From [Flavobacterium] thermophilum (GTDB lineage: Bacteria > Bacillota > Bacilli > Bacillales > Anoxybacillaceae): a stretch of 64,000 bases of DNA. A model generated the notes under the pieces. That model was not told the origin of the DNA. It saw only the letters and a list, made by a program, of their open reading frames with translations, and searched no databases. Positions 3,227 through 8,973 of the stretch are shown here, in pieces (within the stretch, counting starts at the first letter, position 1; each line of letters opens with the position of its first letter). The DNA lies in the NCBI GenBank assembly GCA_900450595.1, contig UGGS01000001.1:930001-994000 (forward strand), in the 5' to 3' direction. A program made the position numbers and the translations under genes.

Positions 3227-3420
3227 ATGAACCTCCCCCACTTATCGAAGTGGGGGTTTCCTGTTTCCCCTTCGGAGGTGGATGCATGATAGGCTGGTTG
3301 GCAGCCTATCTGCAGGCAACACCTGGCACCCGTCCCGTTGGGAGCCACAGGCAACATGAGTATCCATGATACTCAAGGGCGGGAACTCGCCATCTACGAC
3401 TTCATACCTAAGCAATCCGT
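3227..3420 (-). ncRNA. Predicted omega RNA scaffold and right end of the TnpB element
   Basis: In the TnpB family the guide RNA overlaps the 3' end of tnpB and runs through the right end of the element, with the guide being the flanking DNA. Here that region ends with the right-end hairpin (3235-3256) and TTCAT. The guide would begin ACGTTCGCAGTGGGAA (minus strand, from base 3226), which is reductase sequence. It would match the uninterrupted allele next to TTTAA. The 5' limit of the RNA is a guess. Confidence 0.5.
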
Positions 3421-4586
3421 CGATACGTAAACGGTTTGACCGTAAATTCCAACGGGCGAATTTCGCCATAATATACTTTGGCAAATAAATTCATTGCCCC
3501 ATGGATATCACGGTGTTGTTTGTATCCGCATTGACATGTATAATTTCTAGAAGAAGATGTATTCTTCTTCCCGCAAACAGGGCATGTTTGCGATGTGTAA
3601 CTTTCATCTTTTTTCTCTATTTCAATGCCTTCGGCATTCAATTTGTATTTGAGATAATCAAATAGTTTTCCAAACGACCAATTGGATAATTTCTGATTGG
3701 TCTTTTTGTTTCGTTTCTTTTTCGTGTTCCGTTGCACTCCTTCGACATCCCCAATGACCACTTCTTTCACTTGGTTTTCCAAACACCAATGAACAAATTG
3801 TCTCGTTGTTTTGTGCAGTGCATCCTTTAGTTGTGCCTCTGATTTCGAAAGTACATATTGTTTCGCCCGATTGTACTTTTTCCATTGTTTGGAGCCTTTT
3901 TTGCATCTGCTCATGAGTTTTTGCAATTCTTTTAATTTCTTGTTTCTCAACCGATGAATGCTTCTTATTTTTCTTCCCGTGATAATGAGGCTTTCCCCAT
4001 TTTCACAAATGGCTGCGATGGTGTGAATTTCCCCTGGGTCAATAGCAACACGGTTTTTACATGGTTTTTCTTTTGGTTTTTTCCCATCTTCATACGATAA
4101 ACAAAGCCACAAACCACGGTCATAGACCAACTCGATTTCTTTGACTTTTCCGTTTGGAAGTTTCTCTTTGTCGATTTTCACCACCAAAGGAGATTGTCGT
4201 TTTCGATTCCAAATTCCTAGCGACAGTTCCAACGTTCCGTCTTCACGCAAAACAAATCCATCTTTTGCCCATTTCGTGTTGAAGTGTTTTTTCTTTTTGT
4301 ATGGATATTTGATTTTTTCTCCTTTTTTCCGTGCTTCTTTTGCCCCATCACGGGCAAAGATATATTTATGCACAACGGCTTGGATGCTTTGGCTGTGGAT
4401 AGGAAAACGACCTTTTGTTGCTTTTTGCAGTTCCGTTTTGGTTATCCATTTTCCTGTTTTCAAATGATGTTCTTTTGCCAAACGAATGCATTCGTTCCAA
4501 ACTTCTGCGGAGATGCGATTGCATTCAAATAGTTTTTGGATAACTTCTTTCTTTGCCCGAAAACGGGTTTTCAGCGTTCGATACAT
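3408..4586 (-). CDS. tnpB: RNA-guided endonuclease TnpB (IS605/IS1341 type)
   Basis: 392 residues, full length for compact TnpB. The N-terminal helix-turn-helix/wedge region MYRTLKTRFRAKKEVIQKL is followed by the split RuvC nuclease: VAIDPGEIHTIAA (first Asp, about residue 187), VVIGDVEGVQRN (Glu) and HRDIHGAMNLFAK (last Asp), with the zinc knuckle CPVCGKKN...YTCQCG between the last two. All three acidic residues are present. The start has the ribosome site GGAGGTG eight bases upstream. The protein is expected to cut double-stranded DNA matching the omega RNA guide next to the target motif, which favours retention of the element. The last motif HRDIHG differs from the more common DRDxNA. Confidence 0.93.
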   Translation of the reverse strand: MYRTLKTRFRAKKEVIQKLFECNRISAEVWNECIRLAKEHHLKTGKWITKTELQKATKGRFPIHSQSIQAVVHKYIFARDGAKEARKKGEKIKYPYKKKKHFNTKWAKDGFVLREDGTLELSLGIWNRKRQSPLVVKIDKEKLPNGKVKEIELVYDRGLWLCLSYEDGKKPKEKPCKNRVAIDPGEIHTIAAICENGESLIITGRKIRSIHRLRNKKLKELQKLMSRCKKGSKQWKKYNRAKQYVLSKSEAQLKDALHKTTRQFVHWCLENQVKEVVIGDVEGVQRNTKKKRNKKTNQKLSNWSFGKLFDYLKYKLNAEGIEIEKKDESYTSQTCPVCGKKNTSSSRNYTCQCGYKQHRDIHGAMNLFAKVYYGEIRPLEFTVKPFTYRRIA

Positions 4587-4706: not shown

Positions 4707-5176
4707 TTAAAGTTGGAAACGCCAAAATAGCGCACTTTTCCATCCTTCTTGAGTTGGAGAAACGCCTCGGCCACCTCTTCCGGGTTCATAAACGGATCCG
4801 GGCGGTGGATAAGCAATACATCAATATAATCGGTATGGAAGTGTCGAAGGGATTGCTCAACCGAAGCGATGATATGATTTTTGCTTGTATCGTATAATTT
4901 CATCCCGTACTTCGATGGCAGCTTGATGCCGCATTTCGTCACGATCTCGATCTGACCGCGCAAGCTTGGCTTTAACGCCAGCGCTTCGCCAAAGCGCGAT
5001 TCACACGTGTAGTCGCCGTAAATATCAGCATGGTCAAACGTCGTAATGCCGCGCTCAAGACAAAATTCAATGAGCCCGAGCAGCTGCTCGCGCGAATAGC
5101 CCCAGTCCGCAAGCCGCCAACAGCCGTGAATGAGGCGGGAAAACGTCAAATCGTCCGCCAACCGAATTCGTTCCAT
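4707..5176 (-). pseudogene. Aldo/keto reductase, N-terminal fragment (split by IS605-family element)
   Basis: The fragment begins MERIRLADDLTFSRLIHGCWRL and holds the catalytic tetrad regions: ITTFDHADIYGDY (Asp and Tyr), EIVTKCGIKLP (Lys) and DVLLIHRPDPFM (His), ending KVRYFGVSNF. This is the N-terminal half of the NADPH-dependent aldo/keto reductase barrel, similar to the YqkF group. Translation continues about 34 codons into the element before stopping, so a truncated protein lacking the cofactor-binding C-terminus would be made. The rest of the gene is at 2806-3226. Confidence 0.92.
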
Positions 5177-5265
5177 TGATTGTCTCCCTTTCTTTATTTT
5201 TGGCTAAAATCGTTCCGCTTGCGCATACTACCAACAAGAGGAAAAAACGGAAAGGACGTGATGAT

Positions 5266-7122
5266 ATGAAGCGCTGGCTTCTTGGGCTCGCCGCTGTGCT
5301 TCTTTTCGCCTCCCCATGGCCGGCATCAGCCGCCGAAACCGCATACGAATGGAACCTAGCCGACATTTATCCATCCGAAGCCGAGTGGATGCACGACTAC
5401 AAGGCGGTGCAAAACGCCTTGCCGAAACTGGCGGCGTTTGAAGGAAAACTCGATGATGCAAAGACGATCGCCAAACTGTTCGCCCTCAACGAACAAACGG
5501 CCCGCAAGCTCGAAAAACTGTCGCTTTACACCCATTTAAAACGCGATCTGAACATTGAAGACGAGGCAGCGGCCCGGCTTGGGGCAAAAGTGGAAGCGCT
5601 CGCCGCCCAACATGCGGCGAAAACAGCGTTCATCGAGCCGGAACTGCTCGCCCTACCCGAGCGGACGCTCAGGAAGCTCCAAACGAGCAAAGAGCTGAAA
5701 GCGTACCGCTATTACTTCCATGAGTTGCGTGAGCAAAAGCCGCATACGCTCACGAAACGCGAAGAACAGCTGCTCGCGAAACTATCGCCGGCGCTCGGCG
5801 AAGCGGAGAACATTTATGACCACGCCGCCCGCGGCGATTACGAGCCGCCGTCTGTCACGATGCCGAACGGAAAAACGGTGACATTGACCGACGACCAATA
5901 CGCCGCCATGCTCGAGCACCCGGACCGCCGCTATCGAAAGGCGGCGTTTGAAGCGAAAGCGAAAAGCTATGAGGCGCTCGAGCAGACCGCCGCGGCGACG
6001 CTGTACGCCTCGGTCAAAGCGGATGAATTGTATGCGAACGTGCGCCGCTATCCATCCGGCCTGGCCGCGGCTCTCGCCGCCGACGATGTCCCGAAGGAAG
6101 TGTTCGACAACTTAATCGCCGCCACCCGCCGCCACTTGCCGGCGCTTCACCGTTATGTCGAACTGCGGCGGCGCGCGCTCGGGCTTGACCGCGTCCATAG
6201 CTATGACTTGTACGTGCCGCTTGTCGGTGAAACGGCGAAATCGATCCCAGTTGAAACAGCGAAAACGTTCATTGTCGAAGGGCTCAAGCCGCTCGGCGCC
6301 GACTATATCAAACAGGTGCACCGAGCGTTTCAAGAACGATGGCTTGATGTCTTCCCGCGCCCGAAAAAATATACCGGCGGCTACAACACGGGAGCGTATG
6401 ACACCCATCCGTTCATCTTGCTCAATTACAACGGTTCGCTTGATGGCGTATTGACGATGGCCCACGAGCTTGGGCACGCCATGCATTCCGTCTACACGAA
6501 CCGCGCGCAGCCGTACCATTATGCCGGCCATTCGATTTTCACCGCCGAAGTCGCCTCGACCGCGAACGAATGGCTCATGCTCGATTATTTATACAAACAG
6601 GCGAAAACAAAAGAAGAAAAACTCCGCCTGCTCATCGAACAAATCGAGCAAATCCGCGGCACGTTGTACACGCAAGTGATGTATTCCGAATTTGAGCGGA
6701 TCATTCATAACAAAGTGCGCCAAGGCGGCAGCCTGACAGCGGACGAACTGAACCAGCTTTGGCTTGGCTTGCTCAAAACGTATTACGGCCCGGCGTACGC
6801 CGCCGATCCCGGCGCCGCGCGCGGCTGGCTGCGCATTCCGCATTTTTATGACGCCTTTTATGTATACAAATATGCCACTTCGCTCGCCGCATCGTACACC
6901 ATTGTGAGCGGCATTCAAACCGATGCAAGCGGCAAGGCGGTGAAGCGGTACAAACAATTTTTGCGCTCCGGCGCATCCGATGACCCGATCCGTCTGCTCA
7001 AACGTGCCGGAGTGGATATGACAAGCCCCGAACCGATCGAGCGGGTCTTAGATCATTTCGCCGAACTCGTCGACGAGCTCGATCGGCAGCTGTCAAGCCA
7101 AAACCGTCAGCGGTCTATATAG
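5266..7122 (+). CDS. Secreted oligoendopeptidase F-like M3 metallopeptidase
   Basis: 618 residues. The chosen ATG follows AAAGGACG by a few bases and gives a signal peptide MKRWLLGLAAVLLFASPWPASA; an in-frame start 30 codons earlier has no such logic. The zinc site is TMAHELGHAMHS (HExxH, about residue 403) with the downstream Glu in FTAEVASTANEW. M3B enzymes cut short oligopeptides; most are cytoplasmic, so the exported form is noteworthy and suggests processing of peptides outside the membrane. The stop codon TAG lies inside the terminal inverted repeat of the folded element at 7116-7358, so the last residues may have been altered by that insertion. Confidence 0.93.
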   Translation: MKRWLLGLAAVLLFASPWPASAAETAYEWNLADIYPSEAEWMHDYKAVQNALPKLAAFEGKLDDAKTIAKLFALNEQTARKLEKLSLYTHLKRDLNIEDEAAARLGAKVEALAAQHAAKTAFIEPELLALPERTLRKLQTSKELKAYRYYFHELREQKPHTLTKREEQLLAKLSPALGEAENIYDHAARGDYEPPSVTMPNGKTVTLTDDQYAAMLEHPDRRYRKAAFEAKAKSYEALEQTAAATLYASVKADELYANVRRYPSGLAAALAADDVPKEVFDNLIAATRRHLPALHRYVELRRRALGLDRVHSYDLYVPLVGETAKSIPVETAKTFIVEGLKPLGADYIKQVHRAFQERWLDVFPRPKKYTGGYNTGAYDTHPFILLNYNGSLDGVLTMAHELGHAMHSVYTNRAQPYHYAGHSIFTAEVASTANEWLMLDYLYKQAKTKEEKLRLLIEQIEQIRGTLYTQVMYSEFERIIHNKVRQGGSLTADELNQLWLGLLKTYYGPAYAADPGAARGWLRIPHFYDAFYVYKYATSLAASYTIVSGIQTDASGKAVKRYKQFLRSGASDDPIRLLKRAGVDMTSPEPIERVLDHFAELVDELDRQLSSQNRQRSI

Positions 7123-7358
7123 ATGCAATTTAAAGCTTTAACATTTTTCGTCTTTGCCGGTCATTGCATCCGACTGTCGAGTGACCGAACAACGCCGCTT
7201 AAAGACCCATGAATGGGTCTGTGAAGCGAGTCGTTGTTCGGTCTTCCGTCACGCTAAGGCGTGACGGAGGCAAGCCACACGCTTGCCTTCGACAGTCAAA
7301 AATGGGCAAACCACTTTTCTGTCAAGGATATGTTAAACTTCTTTGTTGCATCTATATA
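7116..7358. repeat. Folded MITE-like element with cloverleaf-like core
   Basis: A 243-base structure between two convergent genes. Outer inverted repeat: TATATAGATGCAA (7116-7128) with its exact complement at 7346-7358, extended by a weaker match containing TTTAACAT. Inside, a 9-bp stem GACTGTCGA/TCGACAGTC (7172-7180 with 7289-7297) encloses three arms with almost no unpaired bases. Arm 1: GACCGAACAACG with 7232-7243 (12 bp), then CGCTT/AAGCG, then AGACCCA/TGGGTCT. Arm 2: CCGTCACGC with 7259-7267 (9 bp). Arm 3: AGGCAAGC with 7281-7288 (8 bp). No ORF is contained. Either a MITE-type repeat or a structured RNA element; no second copy is in the window. Confidence 0.85.
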
Positions 7359-7366
7359 CATGAAAG

Positions 7367-7393
7367 AGGTGTCCCGCGCCGTTCGGGACACCT
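7367..7393. terminator. Bidirectional terminator hairpin, pepF-like gene / pncB
   Basis: AGGTGTCCC pairs perfectly with GGGACACCT around a 9-base loop, followed by TTGTTGTT on the plus strand. A further inverted repeat CGCTTTGCG/CGCAAAGCG (about 7420-7480) lies next to the pncB stop codon and may serve the minus strand. Confidence 0.7.
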
Positions 7394-7503
7394 TTGTTGT
7401 TGCGGCGGAAAGAAGAATATCGCTTTGCGCTGCAACGCGCCGAGCTTCAATCGGACGCCAGCGCGCAAAGCGGAACCGTTCGCTTGCCCCGCAGCCAAGA
7501 CGG

Positions 7504-8973
7504 TTATTCACTTAAAGATGCGCCGGCAATTTTTTCTTTCACCTTGCGGATGTTTTCCATCTTATTGTCCCAACACGCTTGGCTCAAATCGACGGGATAT
7601 TGCTCGGGATTGAGCGTCCGTTTGTACTCCTCCCAAAACAAGCGCAAGCTTTCTTTTGCGTACGCTTGAATGTCCGGAAGCGGGGGCGACGTATACACGA
7701 GCCGGCCGTTGTCGAAGATCGTCACATGCAAATCACGCGCTTCGAAATTGGTGACGAATTTGCTGATGAACGTGTACACCGGATGGAACATTTTCAGCCG
7801 CTCTTCTTGCTGCGGGTTTTCGCTCTCTAAGGCGATGTAGTCGCCTTCCGCTTTATGGTTGATTTTGTTGACGATGCGGTACACCCGCTTCAGCCCCGGC
7901 GTCGTCACTTTTTCCGGATTGCCGCTGATTTTGATCGTATCGACCATCTCACCGCGTTCGTTTTCGATCGCCACCATTTTGTACACGGCGCCGAGCGCCG
8001 GCTGATCGTACGCCGTAATGAGTTTGGTGCCGATCCCCCACACATCGATTTTCGCCCCTTGCGACTTCAAGTTTAAAATCGTATCTTCGTCCAAATCGTT
8101 TGAGGCGAAAATTTTCGCGTTCGGAAATCCGGCTTCATCGAGCATTTTCCGCGCTTCTTTCGACAAATAGGCCAAATCGCCGCTGTCGATGCGGATGCCG
8201 ATAAAGTTGATTTGGTCGCCCAGCTCCTTCGCGACGCGAATGGCGTTTGGCACCCCGGACTTCAACGTATCGTACGTATCGACAAGAAAGACACAGTCTT
8301 TATGGCGGCGTGCATACTTCAAAAAGGCCGTGTATTCATCCTGATACGCTTGAATCATTGAATGGGCGTGCGTTCCGGCGACCGGAATGCCAAACAGCTT
8401 CCCGGCACGCACGTTTGATGTCGCCTCAATCCCACCGATATACGCTGCGCGCGCGCCCCAAAGCGCCGCATCCATCTCCTGCGCCCGCCGGCTGCCGAAC
8501 TCCAAGGCCGGCTCATCCCCGAGAATATGCTTAATGCGCGACGCTTTCGTGGCGATGAGCGTCTGAAAATTGATGATGTTTAAAATGGCGGTTTCAATGA
8601 GCTGCGCCTCCGCAAGCGGCGCCTCAATGCGCATAATCGGCTCGTTGGCAAACACCACTTCCCCTTCGCGCATCGAACGGACCGTGCCGGTGAAGCGAAG
8701 CGTCCGCAAATAGTCTAAAAAGTCATCACGGTAGCCAAGCTCTTGGCGCAAATAGTCGATGTCGCTGTCAGAAAATCGGAACTGCTGCAAAAACTGAATG
8801 ACGCGCTCCAACCCAGCGAACACCGCATAGCCGTTGCCAAACGGCAGCTTGCGGAAAAACACTTCAAACACAGCGCGGCGCTCATGCATACGATCTTCCC
8901 AATACGTCTCGACCATATTGATTTGATATAAGTCCGTATGAAGCATCAAACTGTCATCAGCATATGTCTTCAT
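7504..8973 (-). CDS. pncB: Nicotinate phosphoribosyltransferase
   Basis: 489 residues, the usual length in Bacillaceae. The N-terminus LMLHTDLYQINMVETYWEDRMHERRAVFEVFFRK is characteristic of PncB; FGSRRAQEMDAALWGARAAYIGG and VAGTHAHSMIQAY follow in the catalytic core, and GIRIDSGDLAYLSKEARKMLDEAG is the phosphoribosyl pyrophosphate-binding region. It condenses nicotinate with PRPP to nicotinate mononucleotide in the Preiss-Handler NAD salvage route. It lies 80 bases downstream of pncA on the same strand, which makes its substrate, so the pair is probably co-transcribed. Confidence 0.96.
   Translation of the reverse strand: MKTYADDSLMLHTDLYQINMVETYWEDRMHERRAVFEVFFRKLPFGNGYAVFAGLERVIQFLQQFRFSDSDIDYLRQELGYRDDFLDYLRTLRFTGTVRSMREGEVVFANEPIMRIEAPLAEAQLIETAILNIINFQTLIATKASRIKHILGDEPALEFGSRRAQEMDAALWGARAAYIGGIEATSNVRAGKLFGIPVAGTHAHSMIQAYQDEYTAFLKYARRHKDCVFLVDTYDTLKSGVPNAIRVAKELGDQINFIGIRIDSGDLAYLSKEARKMLDEAGFPNAKIFASNDLDEDTILNLKSQGAKIDVWGIGTKLITAYDQPALGAVYKMVAIENERGEMVDTIKISGNPEKVTTPGLKRVYRIVNKINHKAEGDYIALESENPQQEERLKMFHPVYTFISKFVTNFEARDLHVTIFDNGRLVYTSPPLPDIQAYAKESLRLFWEEYKRTLNPEQYPVDLSQACWDNKMENIRKVKEKIAGASLSE

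Follow-up and report, generated by a model that had tools for sequence, protein, structure and literature searches.

The element at positions 7118–7356 of the window (the whole 64,000-nt stretch of DNA analysed here) is very probably a non-autonomous MITE of the IS630 type, presumably moved in trans, in which two hairpins of the core, arms B and C, would turn in place by hairpin template switching. Its mobility is documented by filled and empty sites; the sequence of its ends, the target duplication and loops that occur both ways round are likewise documented.

Boundaries, predicted fold and insertion site

The boundaries were set by comparison with an empty site. In G. thermocatenulatus (L064) the corresponding DNA reads GGTCTACATG, against GGTCTA[element]TACATG in the window, so that the element proper spans 7118–7356 and the outermost TAs are target DNA. 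The features referred to below, with the basis of each in parentheses, are as follows.

7116–7117, no strand: TA target duplication, left copy (empty-site comparison)
7118–7356, no strand: element proper, a 239-bp MITE, TATAG...CTATA (empty site in L064, repeat family, ends)
7118–7144, + strand: left terminal inverted repeat, IS630-like, TATAGATGCAATTTAAAGCTTTAACAT (inverted repeat; likeness to IS630 ends)
7120–7122, + strand: TAG stop, supplied by the element end, of the peptidase gene at 5176–7122 (M3 family; frame read by eye)
7172–7180, no strand: core closing stem, left side, 9 bp, pairs with 7289–7297 (predicted fold; pairing in 65 copies)
7183–7243, no strand: arm A, 12-bp stem 7183–7194/7232–7243 with a nested hairpin at 7203–7220 inside (predicted fold)
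7245–7268, no strand: arm B, 10-bp stem 7245–7254/7259–7268, 4-nt loop 7255–7258, TAAG here
7269–7287, no strand: arm C, 7-bp stem 7269–7275/7281–7287, 5-nt loop 7276–7280, CACAC here
7289–7297, no strand: core closing stem, right side, pairs with 7172–7180 (predicted fold; pairing in 65 copies)
7330–7356, − strand: right terminal inverted repeat, IS630-like (inverted repeat; likeness to IS630 ends)
7357–7358, no strand: TA target duplication, right copy (empty-site comparison)
7367–7393, − strand: terminator-like hairpin just past the element, adjoining the stop codon in the empty site (terminator scan, scored on the − strand only)

A preliminary description of this DNA had named nested perfect stems of 7–12 bp, all of which were found in place, and an outer terminal repeat of 13 bp. 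The latter (7116–7128/7346–7358) is indeed perfect over 13 bp, within a 29-nt repeat at 79%, but its outermost TA is duplicated target, and the perfect terminal repeat of the element proper is 11 bp. The RNA minimum energy was −119.3 kcal/mol for the + strand and −116.1 for the − strand, where shuffled sequences averaged −60.0 (z = −13.9) and −59.1 (z = −13.8), respectively, and the DNA fold gave z = −13.0; in each of the three cases none of 200 shuffles equalled the observed fold, and the earlier observation is confirmed. As also noted earlier, the element holds no ORF: none of at least 50 aa lies wholly within 7118–7356, and three begin or stop inside and extend outward. Identity with a known Rfam family, which the same description had named as a possible refutation, did not emerge, the covariance models giving no match at gathering score in the window and five sub-threshold matches in 6900–7500 (best E 0.42). 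A tRNA scan of 6500–8000 returned nothing for the element, and a promoter scan of 6900–7560 returned no promoter-like site.

The peptidase reading frame closes with TCT ATA TAG where the element is present and with TCT ACA TGA where the site is empty; the element therefore brings the stop codon, whose place in the left repeat had been recognised correctly. Beyond that codon the element probably lies in the 3′ untranslated region of the peptidase gene, and it faces a convergent nicotinate phosphoribosyltransferase gene. The stretch has two such terminator-like sites where shuffled sequence averages 1.3, which is no clear excess over chance. Elsewhere in the window, a TnpB-like gene (3408–4586, − strand) carries a Cas12f1-like TNB domain and OrfB_IS605.

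Repeat family and target-site duplication

The element belongs to a dispersed repeat family. Its own genome gave 22 BLAST matches, eight of them covering at least 240 of the 276 query bases, and two more copies there, at unrelated sites, are 99.6% identical over the element, which indicates recent spread. Matches were found in all 14 Geobacillus genomes searched (one of which, G009, gave a single weak match only), in 27 of 41 family genomes from six of nine genera (up to 18 candidates per genome scored), and in 9 of 299 genomes of an order sample (two candidates per genome scored), one of them (G170) outside the family. The end string TATAGATGCAA occurs 16 times in the own genome, against 0 for the reversed control string, and 14 of these occurrences make seven facing pairs 130–240 bases apart. 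A literature search, which covered few subscription papers, found no published description naming the repeat.

At the element's own site L064 is a clean empty site in one species and L063 is filled, the remaining Geobacillus and related loci compared being too diverged for a filled or empty call; a search with the flank of L002 for a second empty site gave no clean one, the nearest genome (G006) differing at the junction. In the 86 extracted copies whose ends are intact, each copy at a shared site entering on its own, the flanking dinucleotides were TA/TA in 70, TG/TG in six, CA/CA in three and other in seven. The site of one TG/TG copy (L049) is filled in one and empty in seven of the eight genomes that align up to the junction, the other six genomes not aligning that far; the seven empty sites read CAACTGCTCC, so TG is duplicated as well. 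IS630 elements insert at TA as a rule, the TG/TG flanks of some copies being a point against the IS630 reading, and have a CTAG-like target; the target of the extracted copies, judged by eye, was frequently CTAG-like. Furthermore, in none of 30 copy pairs that share their flanks, 26 of which join two genomes, was the whole element turned round. The preliminary description had allowed for a mobile structured element and had proposed counting copies and inspecting empty sites; the many copies, the filled and empty sites and the clean insertions with a 2-bp duplication (TA at L064, TG at L049) show it to be right as regards mobility. At L099 (G006), L029 (G011) and L114 (G010), two MITE copies lie end to end.

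Likeness of the ends to IS630 elements

Matches to the IS630-type DDE transposase domain PF13358 occur in 14 of 14 genomes. One IS630 group has the TA-flanked ends TATAGATGCACATTGAAACATTAA (L213), TATACATGCAACATGAAGAGTTAA (L222) and similar, starting TATAGATGCAC... in L213 and TATACATGCAAC... in L222; the L222 frame scores 266 bits against NF033545 (cut-off 100; 354 residues scanned) and matches PF13358 too, and at six further places in the own genome the domain score and the length of the frame are the same. In ungapped comparison with the ends of L213 and L222, four in all, the left MITE repeat has 18–21 of 27 bases in common and the right repeat 16–19, against 14–17 of 27 for the MITE ends and a second IS630 group, a range that overlaps the weakest of the L213/L222 matches (16). 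The MITE ends are identical to no IS630 end seen, the maximum being 21 of 27 bases, and to judge from these sequences the true partner may be another IS630 member. By analogy with RUP and IS630-Spn1, we infer that the element is mobilised in trans by IS630.

A module of ~108 bp, which follows TGCATCTAT and ends in GTCTATA, occurs at 11 MITE places (one site being included twice, in two genomes), at L026 and at the IS630 locus L214, and is followed by TA in 10 of the 11 MITE places and in L214. This alternative end, common to the MITE and IS630, strengthens the link between the two. Origin of the interior as a deletion derivative of an IS630 element was considered and rejected: blastn against 30 IS630 loci (L193–L222) gave no interior match of that kind, and matched only whole MITE copies (L194, L212) and the extension module (L214).

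Several arrangements were observed around these ends. The module (CCTGAAAATAC...GTCTATA) sits at one MITE end, on either side, in L008, L026, L094, L100, L107, L110, L111, L112, L147, L171, L172 and L191, and is carried by L214 as well; L010 seems to contain a small element composed of part of the module and a MITE end. A second small TA-flanked element of ~105–116 bp (TATAAGTTGCAATAAAG...CAACTTATA) occurs at six places (L010:1331–1446, L041, L055, L109, L132 and L197), and its ends resemble those of the other IS630 group (TATAAGTTGAATTAAAG). At L194 (G006) an IS630 of that other group abuts a MITE end, as though inserted at the terminal TA. The IS630 frame is split near an A run in L213 (near 1476–1484; also in L211 and L214), for which a programmed frameshift is one possibility, and is open throughout in L222.

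Arm B and arm C loops found in both orientations

Altogether 144 copies were extracted, of which 131 passed a selection on length or by manual choice and 65 remained after thinning at 96% identity. In arms B and C, one and the same stem can carry either a given loop or its exact reverse complement. Typing of the 144 copies (loop strings are given with their closing base pairs; the arm B loop could not be read in 11 copies and the arm C loop in 22) gave for arm B 39 CCTTGG and 22 CCAAGG, and 20 CTAAGG and 12 CCTTAG, and for arm C 40 CCTGTGG and 21 CCACAGG, and 12 CCTATGG and 8 CCATAGG, shared-site copies being counted separately and at least one place twice (L040_2 = L140). Both orientations were seen for six of 11 arm B types and five of 16 arm C types, several of them on one or two copies; the common arm B type CGAAGG (15 copies) was found in one orientation only. 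Where the loops of two copies differed by at least two bases, 349 of 1113 pairs (arm B) and 531 of 1148 (arm C) were exact reverse complements, against column-shuffled fractions averaging 0.076 and 0.049 (maxima 0.187 and 0.102). Sliding windows outside columns 151–199 held any reverse-complement pair in 10 of 197 cases, one of which (columns 20–23, 34/119) neared the arm B level. As a further control, 64 hairpins of the window (stems of at least 7, the MITE's three included) were compared with three related genomes: stems were recovered in 67 of 192 comparisons, with the same loop in 52, another loop in 15 and an inverted loop in none, the MITE's own copies contributing three of the same loop and two of another.

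The two arms flip independently of each other, all four combinations of their orientations being common (20, 14, 13 and 11 of the 65 copies, with seven untyped). On a tree of the 65 copies built without the hairpins (four lacking an arm B state and three an arm C state), arm B requires at least 18 changes of orientation and arm C at least 15; nine of the arm B changes are forced by well-supported branches, and shuffled arm B labels needed 20.2 on average, about 100 of 500 shuffles being as low as observed. Flips at one and the same insertion site were seen at three of the 13 loci shared between genomes. At the first, occupied in three species (L119/L129/L139), arm B or arm C is inverted, only inverted loops differ within the two arms, and a few scattered changes lie elsewhere; at the others arm B (L123/L189) or arm C (L031/L177) is inverted.

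Most of these flips might instead go back to ectopic gene conversion between copies and not to a template switch at the replication fork, an explanation that we regard as unlikely. Conversion between copies is visible in the mosaic L001/L093, probably occurred in L114/L186, and perhaps also in L177, which at the L031 site lacks 12 bases, shows further changes characteristic of another subfamily and may have been converted from it. Conversion could pass a loop orientation from copy to copy with no new flip needed. Against its being the main process, L119/L129/L139 differ within arms B and C by inverted loops alone, and six arm B and five arm C loop types exist both ways, some on one or two copies; conversion by itself would not create reverse-complement loop types. 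For the flips, template switching is the mechanism that fits best, with gene conversion as an added or a rival process.

Constraint and pairing in the core stems

The core stems are more conserved than the spacers, the mean difference between copies being 0.06–0.13 in the former and 0.18–0.26 in the latter. The comparison after insertion depends on which shared loci enter it. Twelve groups (the L001 and L114 loci omitted, the L031 locus split in two) gave 31/1584 for stems and 14/843 for spacers; all 13 shared loci gave 44/2004 and 38/1065, stems changing less; and with converted comparisons set aside (L093, L114/L186 and the cross comparisons of L031–L046/L192) the counts were 31/1690 and 14/902, stems being no longer lower. 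Constraint might act only before insertion, a reading for which the outcome changes between the latter two counts. The element might alternatively be a useful 3′-end module (a terminator, an RNase III target or an mRNA stabiliser) kept for the benefit of the host. Its insertion at the peptidase stop codon, ahead of a terminator-like hairpin, would suit such a role, for which Correia and ERIC elements are described as precedents (PMC2229807, PMC10969869). We consider this improbable, as presence at a site differs between close species and the post-insertion counts of the 13 loci, with and without the converted comparisons, point in different directions.

Across the 65 non-redundant copies, arm B, arm C and the closing stem keep their pairing in 95–98% of cells, the closing stem itself (helix 4) in 96.5% and with no pair changed on both sides; helices 5 and 6 (arm A) are paired in 89.5% and 94.4%. 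Of the outer helices, the second is paired in 84% of cells and the third in 69%. Over 92 pairs, the fraction of paired cells (90.0% against 89.0% shuffled), the covariation score (0.083 against 0.068) and the number of cells changed on both sides (67 against 27.4) each lay above all 500 shuffles, whereas pairs with a double-sided change numbered 18 against 13.9, with 31 of 500 shuffles as high, and further pair types 81 against 80.2. Because related sequences can exceed such shuffles without any structure, we do not claim covariation, which is weak here. RNAalifold, run on the 65-copy alignment, gave a weak consensus of −15.2 kcal/mol with 27 pairs, four of them with a double-sided change, and the commonest double changes in the hairpins are seven or eight copies of one kind, by eye an eight-copy G027/G020 clade. 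Of the compensatory changes that the preliminary description had proposed to look for, few were found, and none of these double-sided changes falls in the closing stem.

Departures within core pairs of Watson–Crick consensus were G-U in 53 cells and A-C in 70 (27 and 28 columns), a count that omits four core pairs, two commonest as G-U and two without a clear Watson–Crick consensus. Selection for an RNA from one strand should favour G-U, and no strand is favoured. Counting all core pairs of the L001 fold gave 232 G-U and 109 A-C cells, a count biased by that fold having been predicted as + strand RNA with G-U allowed.

A structured non-coding or regulatory RNA domain, spread by transposition and kept for its RNA function, is an explanation that we regard as highly improbable. 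In its favour are the very stable fold, the lower variation of core stems than of spacers, the covariation score and both-sided cells above all 500 shuffles, two closing-stem pairs, at the inner end of that stem, for which G-U is the most frequent form when read on the + strand (33 and 54 of 65 copies) and, with the bias just stated, the 232 G-U cells. Weighing against it, the − strand folds nearly as stably, Watson–Crick pairs show no G-U excess over A-C, the closing stem has no double-sided change, and loops are found as their own reverse complements, which means that no loop sequence is kept; there is also no Rfam match, and no promoter-like site in 6900–7560. The earlier suggestion of a non-coding RNA fares poorly for similar reasons, given the many unrelated sites, the lack of a G-U excess on either strand and the few double-sided changes. 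Its companion, selection for a folded form, keeps partial support: stems do differ less than spacers, but hairpin-templated correction can also keep stems perfect.

Comparison with known systems

Correia elements have ends that start TATAG and flanks of TA, and the present element is likewise a MITE with such end starts and flanks; its end TATAGATGCAA, compared unaligned, differs from the Correia end after TATAG. The folded repeat bcr1 makes a 5-bp target duplication, TTTAT, against 2 bp here, and REP/BIME sequences are described as palindromes of 20–40 bp, against a 239-bp element with TA-flanked terminal repeats. The bcr or REP type suggested earlier for the element does not hold, its ends and 2-bp target duplication being of IS630 type. 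That a REP/IS200-IS605-type element moved as single-stranded DNA is hardly credible despite the hairpins and the nearby TnpB-like gene (3408–4586), given ends that resemble IS630 and terminal inverted repeats with a 2-bp target duplication, which to our knowledge is not a signature of such systems.

Minute hairpin inversions are known from chloroplasts. In yeast genes, ten events of spacer inversion by template switching between inverted repeats are reported (PMC8604942), and 69 loop-only inversions of rRNA hairpins are described as the product of a rare event, the same process being proposed to make and mend stems (PMC8794818). These systems resemble the present one in that a loop or spacer is turned, in some cases repeatedly, between perfect inverted repeats. 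They differ in having few events, whereas on the tree of the present family the orientation of arm B shows no more clustering than shuffled labels do.

RUP of pneumococcus is a 107-bp repeat thought to be mobilised by IS630-Spn1 and inserting at TA (PMC2229807). It is similarly a short repeat with ends like those of an IS630 of the same genome and with TA insertion, and it differs in length (107 against 239 bp) and in that the review's account mentions no multi-arm core. Correia/NEMIS elements of Neisseria, given as ~107 and 155 bp (PMC2229807) or 204 bp (PMC10969869) against 239 bp here, form folded transcripts that are cut by RNase III (PMC2229807, PMC10969869); a whole Correia element can invert (PMC10969869), whereas here inversion affects single hairpins, and copies at shared sites agree in the orientation of the element as a whole. 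The CIR repeats of Caulobacter are set apart from other repeats in the review's account by two arms in place of a single stem (PMC2229807), and differ in being ~110 bp long, in their GANTC motif and in belonging to alpha-proteobacteria, their mobility being unclear. For bcr1 of the Bacillus cereus group a length of 147–167 bp is given (PMC2267715).

Proposed explanation and implications

In the explanation that we favour, an IS630 transposase made elsewhere in the genome would recognise the TATAGATGCA... ends and insert the element at TA, sometimes TG, with duplication of the dinucleotide. Landing at the end of the M3 peptidase gene, ahead of the terminator-like hairpin, would have given that gene its new stop codon, and the element is presumably transcribed together with it. 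The three-arm core would be a closed structure that does not come from an insertion sequence, and during replication a template switch, or an equivalent exchange working through hairpins, would turn its arms B and C in place; by re-copying one side of a stem from the other, this process could also help to keep the stems perfect. On present evidence the element is no RNA gene and is best read as a MITE of the IS630 type whose flipping core is unusually elaborate.

A bolder form of this explanation, which we think unlikely, makes the core a working part: the three-arm folded DNA, as a cruciform or single-stranded, would be needed for spread, and arms B and C would be fast, independent and reversible switches driven by template switching. 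If that were true, the family would be a living record of the process that makes and mends hairpins. As a genome can hold as many as dozens of copies and some sites are common to several species, the rate of flipping is measurable. Perfect stems and paired changes are often taken as marks of a selected RNA. In this family the lack of phylogenetic signal in arm B orientation suggests that DNA-level hairpin copying helps to keep the fold, without clear selection on an RNA strand, and fold strength alone is a poor ground for naming new RNA families. The family is of use as a natural archive of change and persistence in DNA hairpins.
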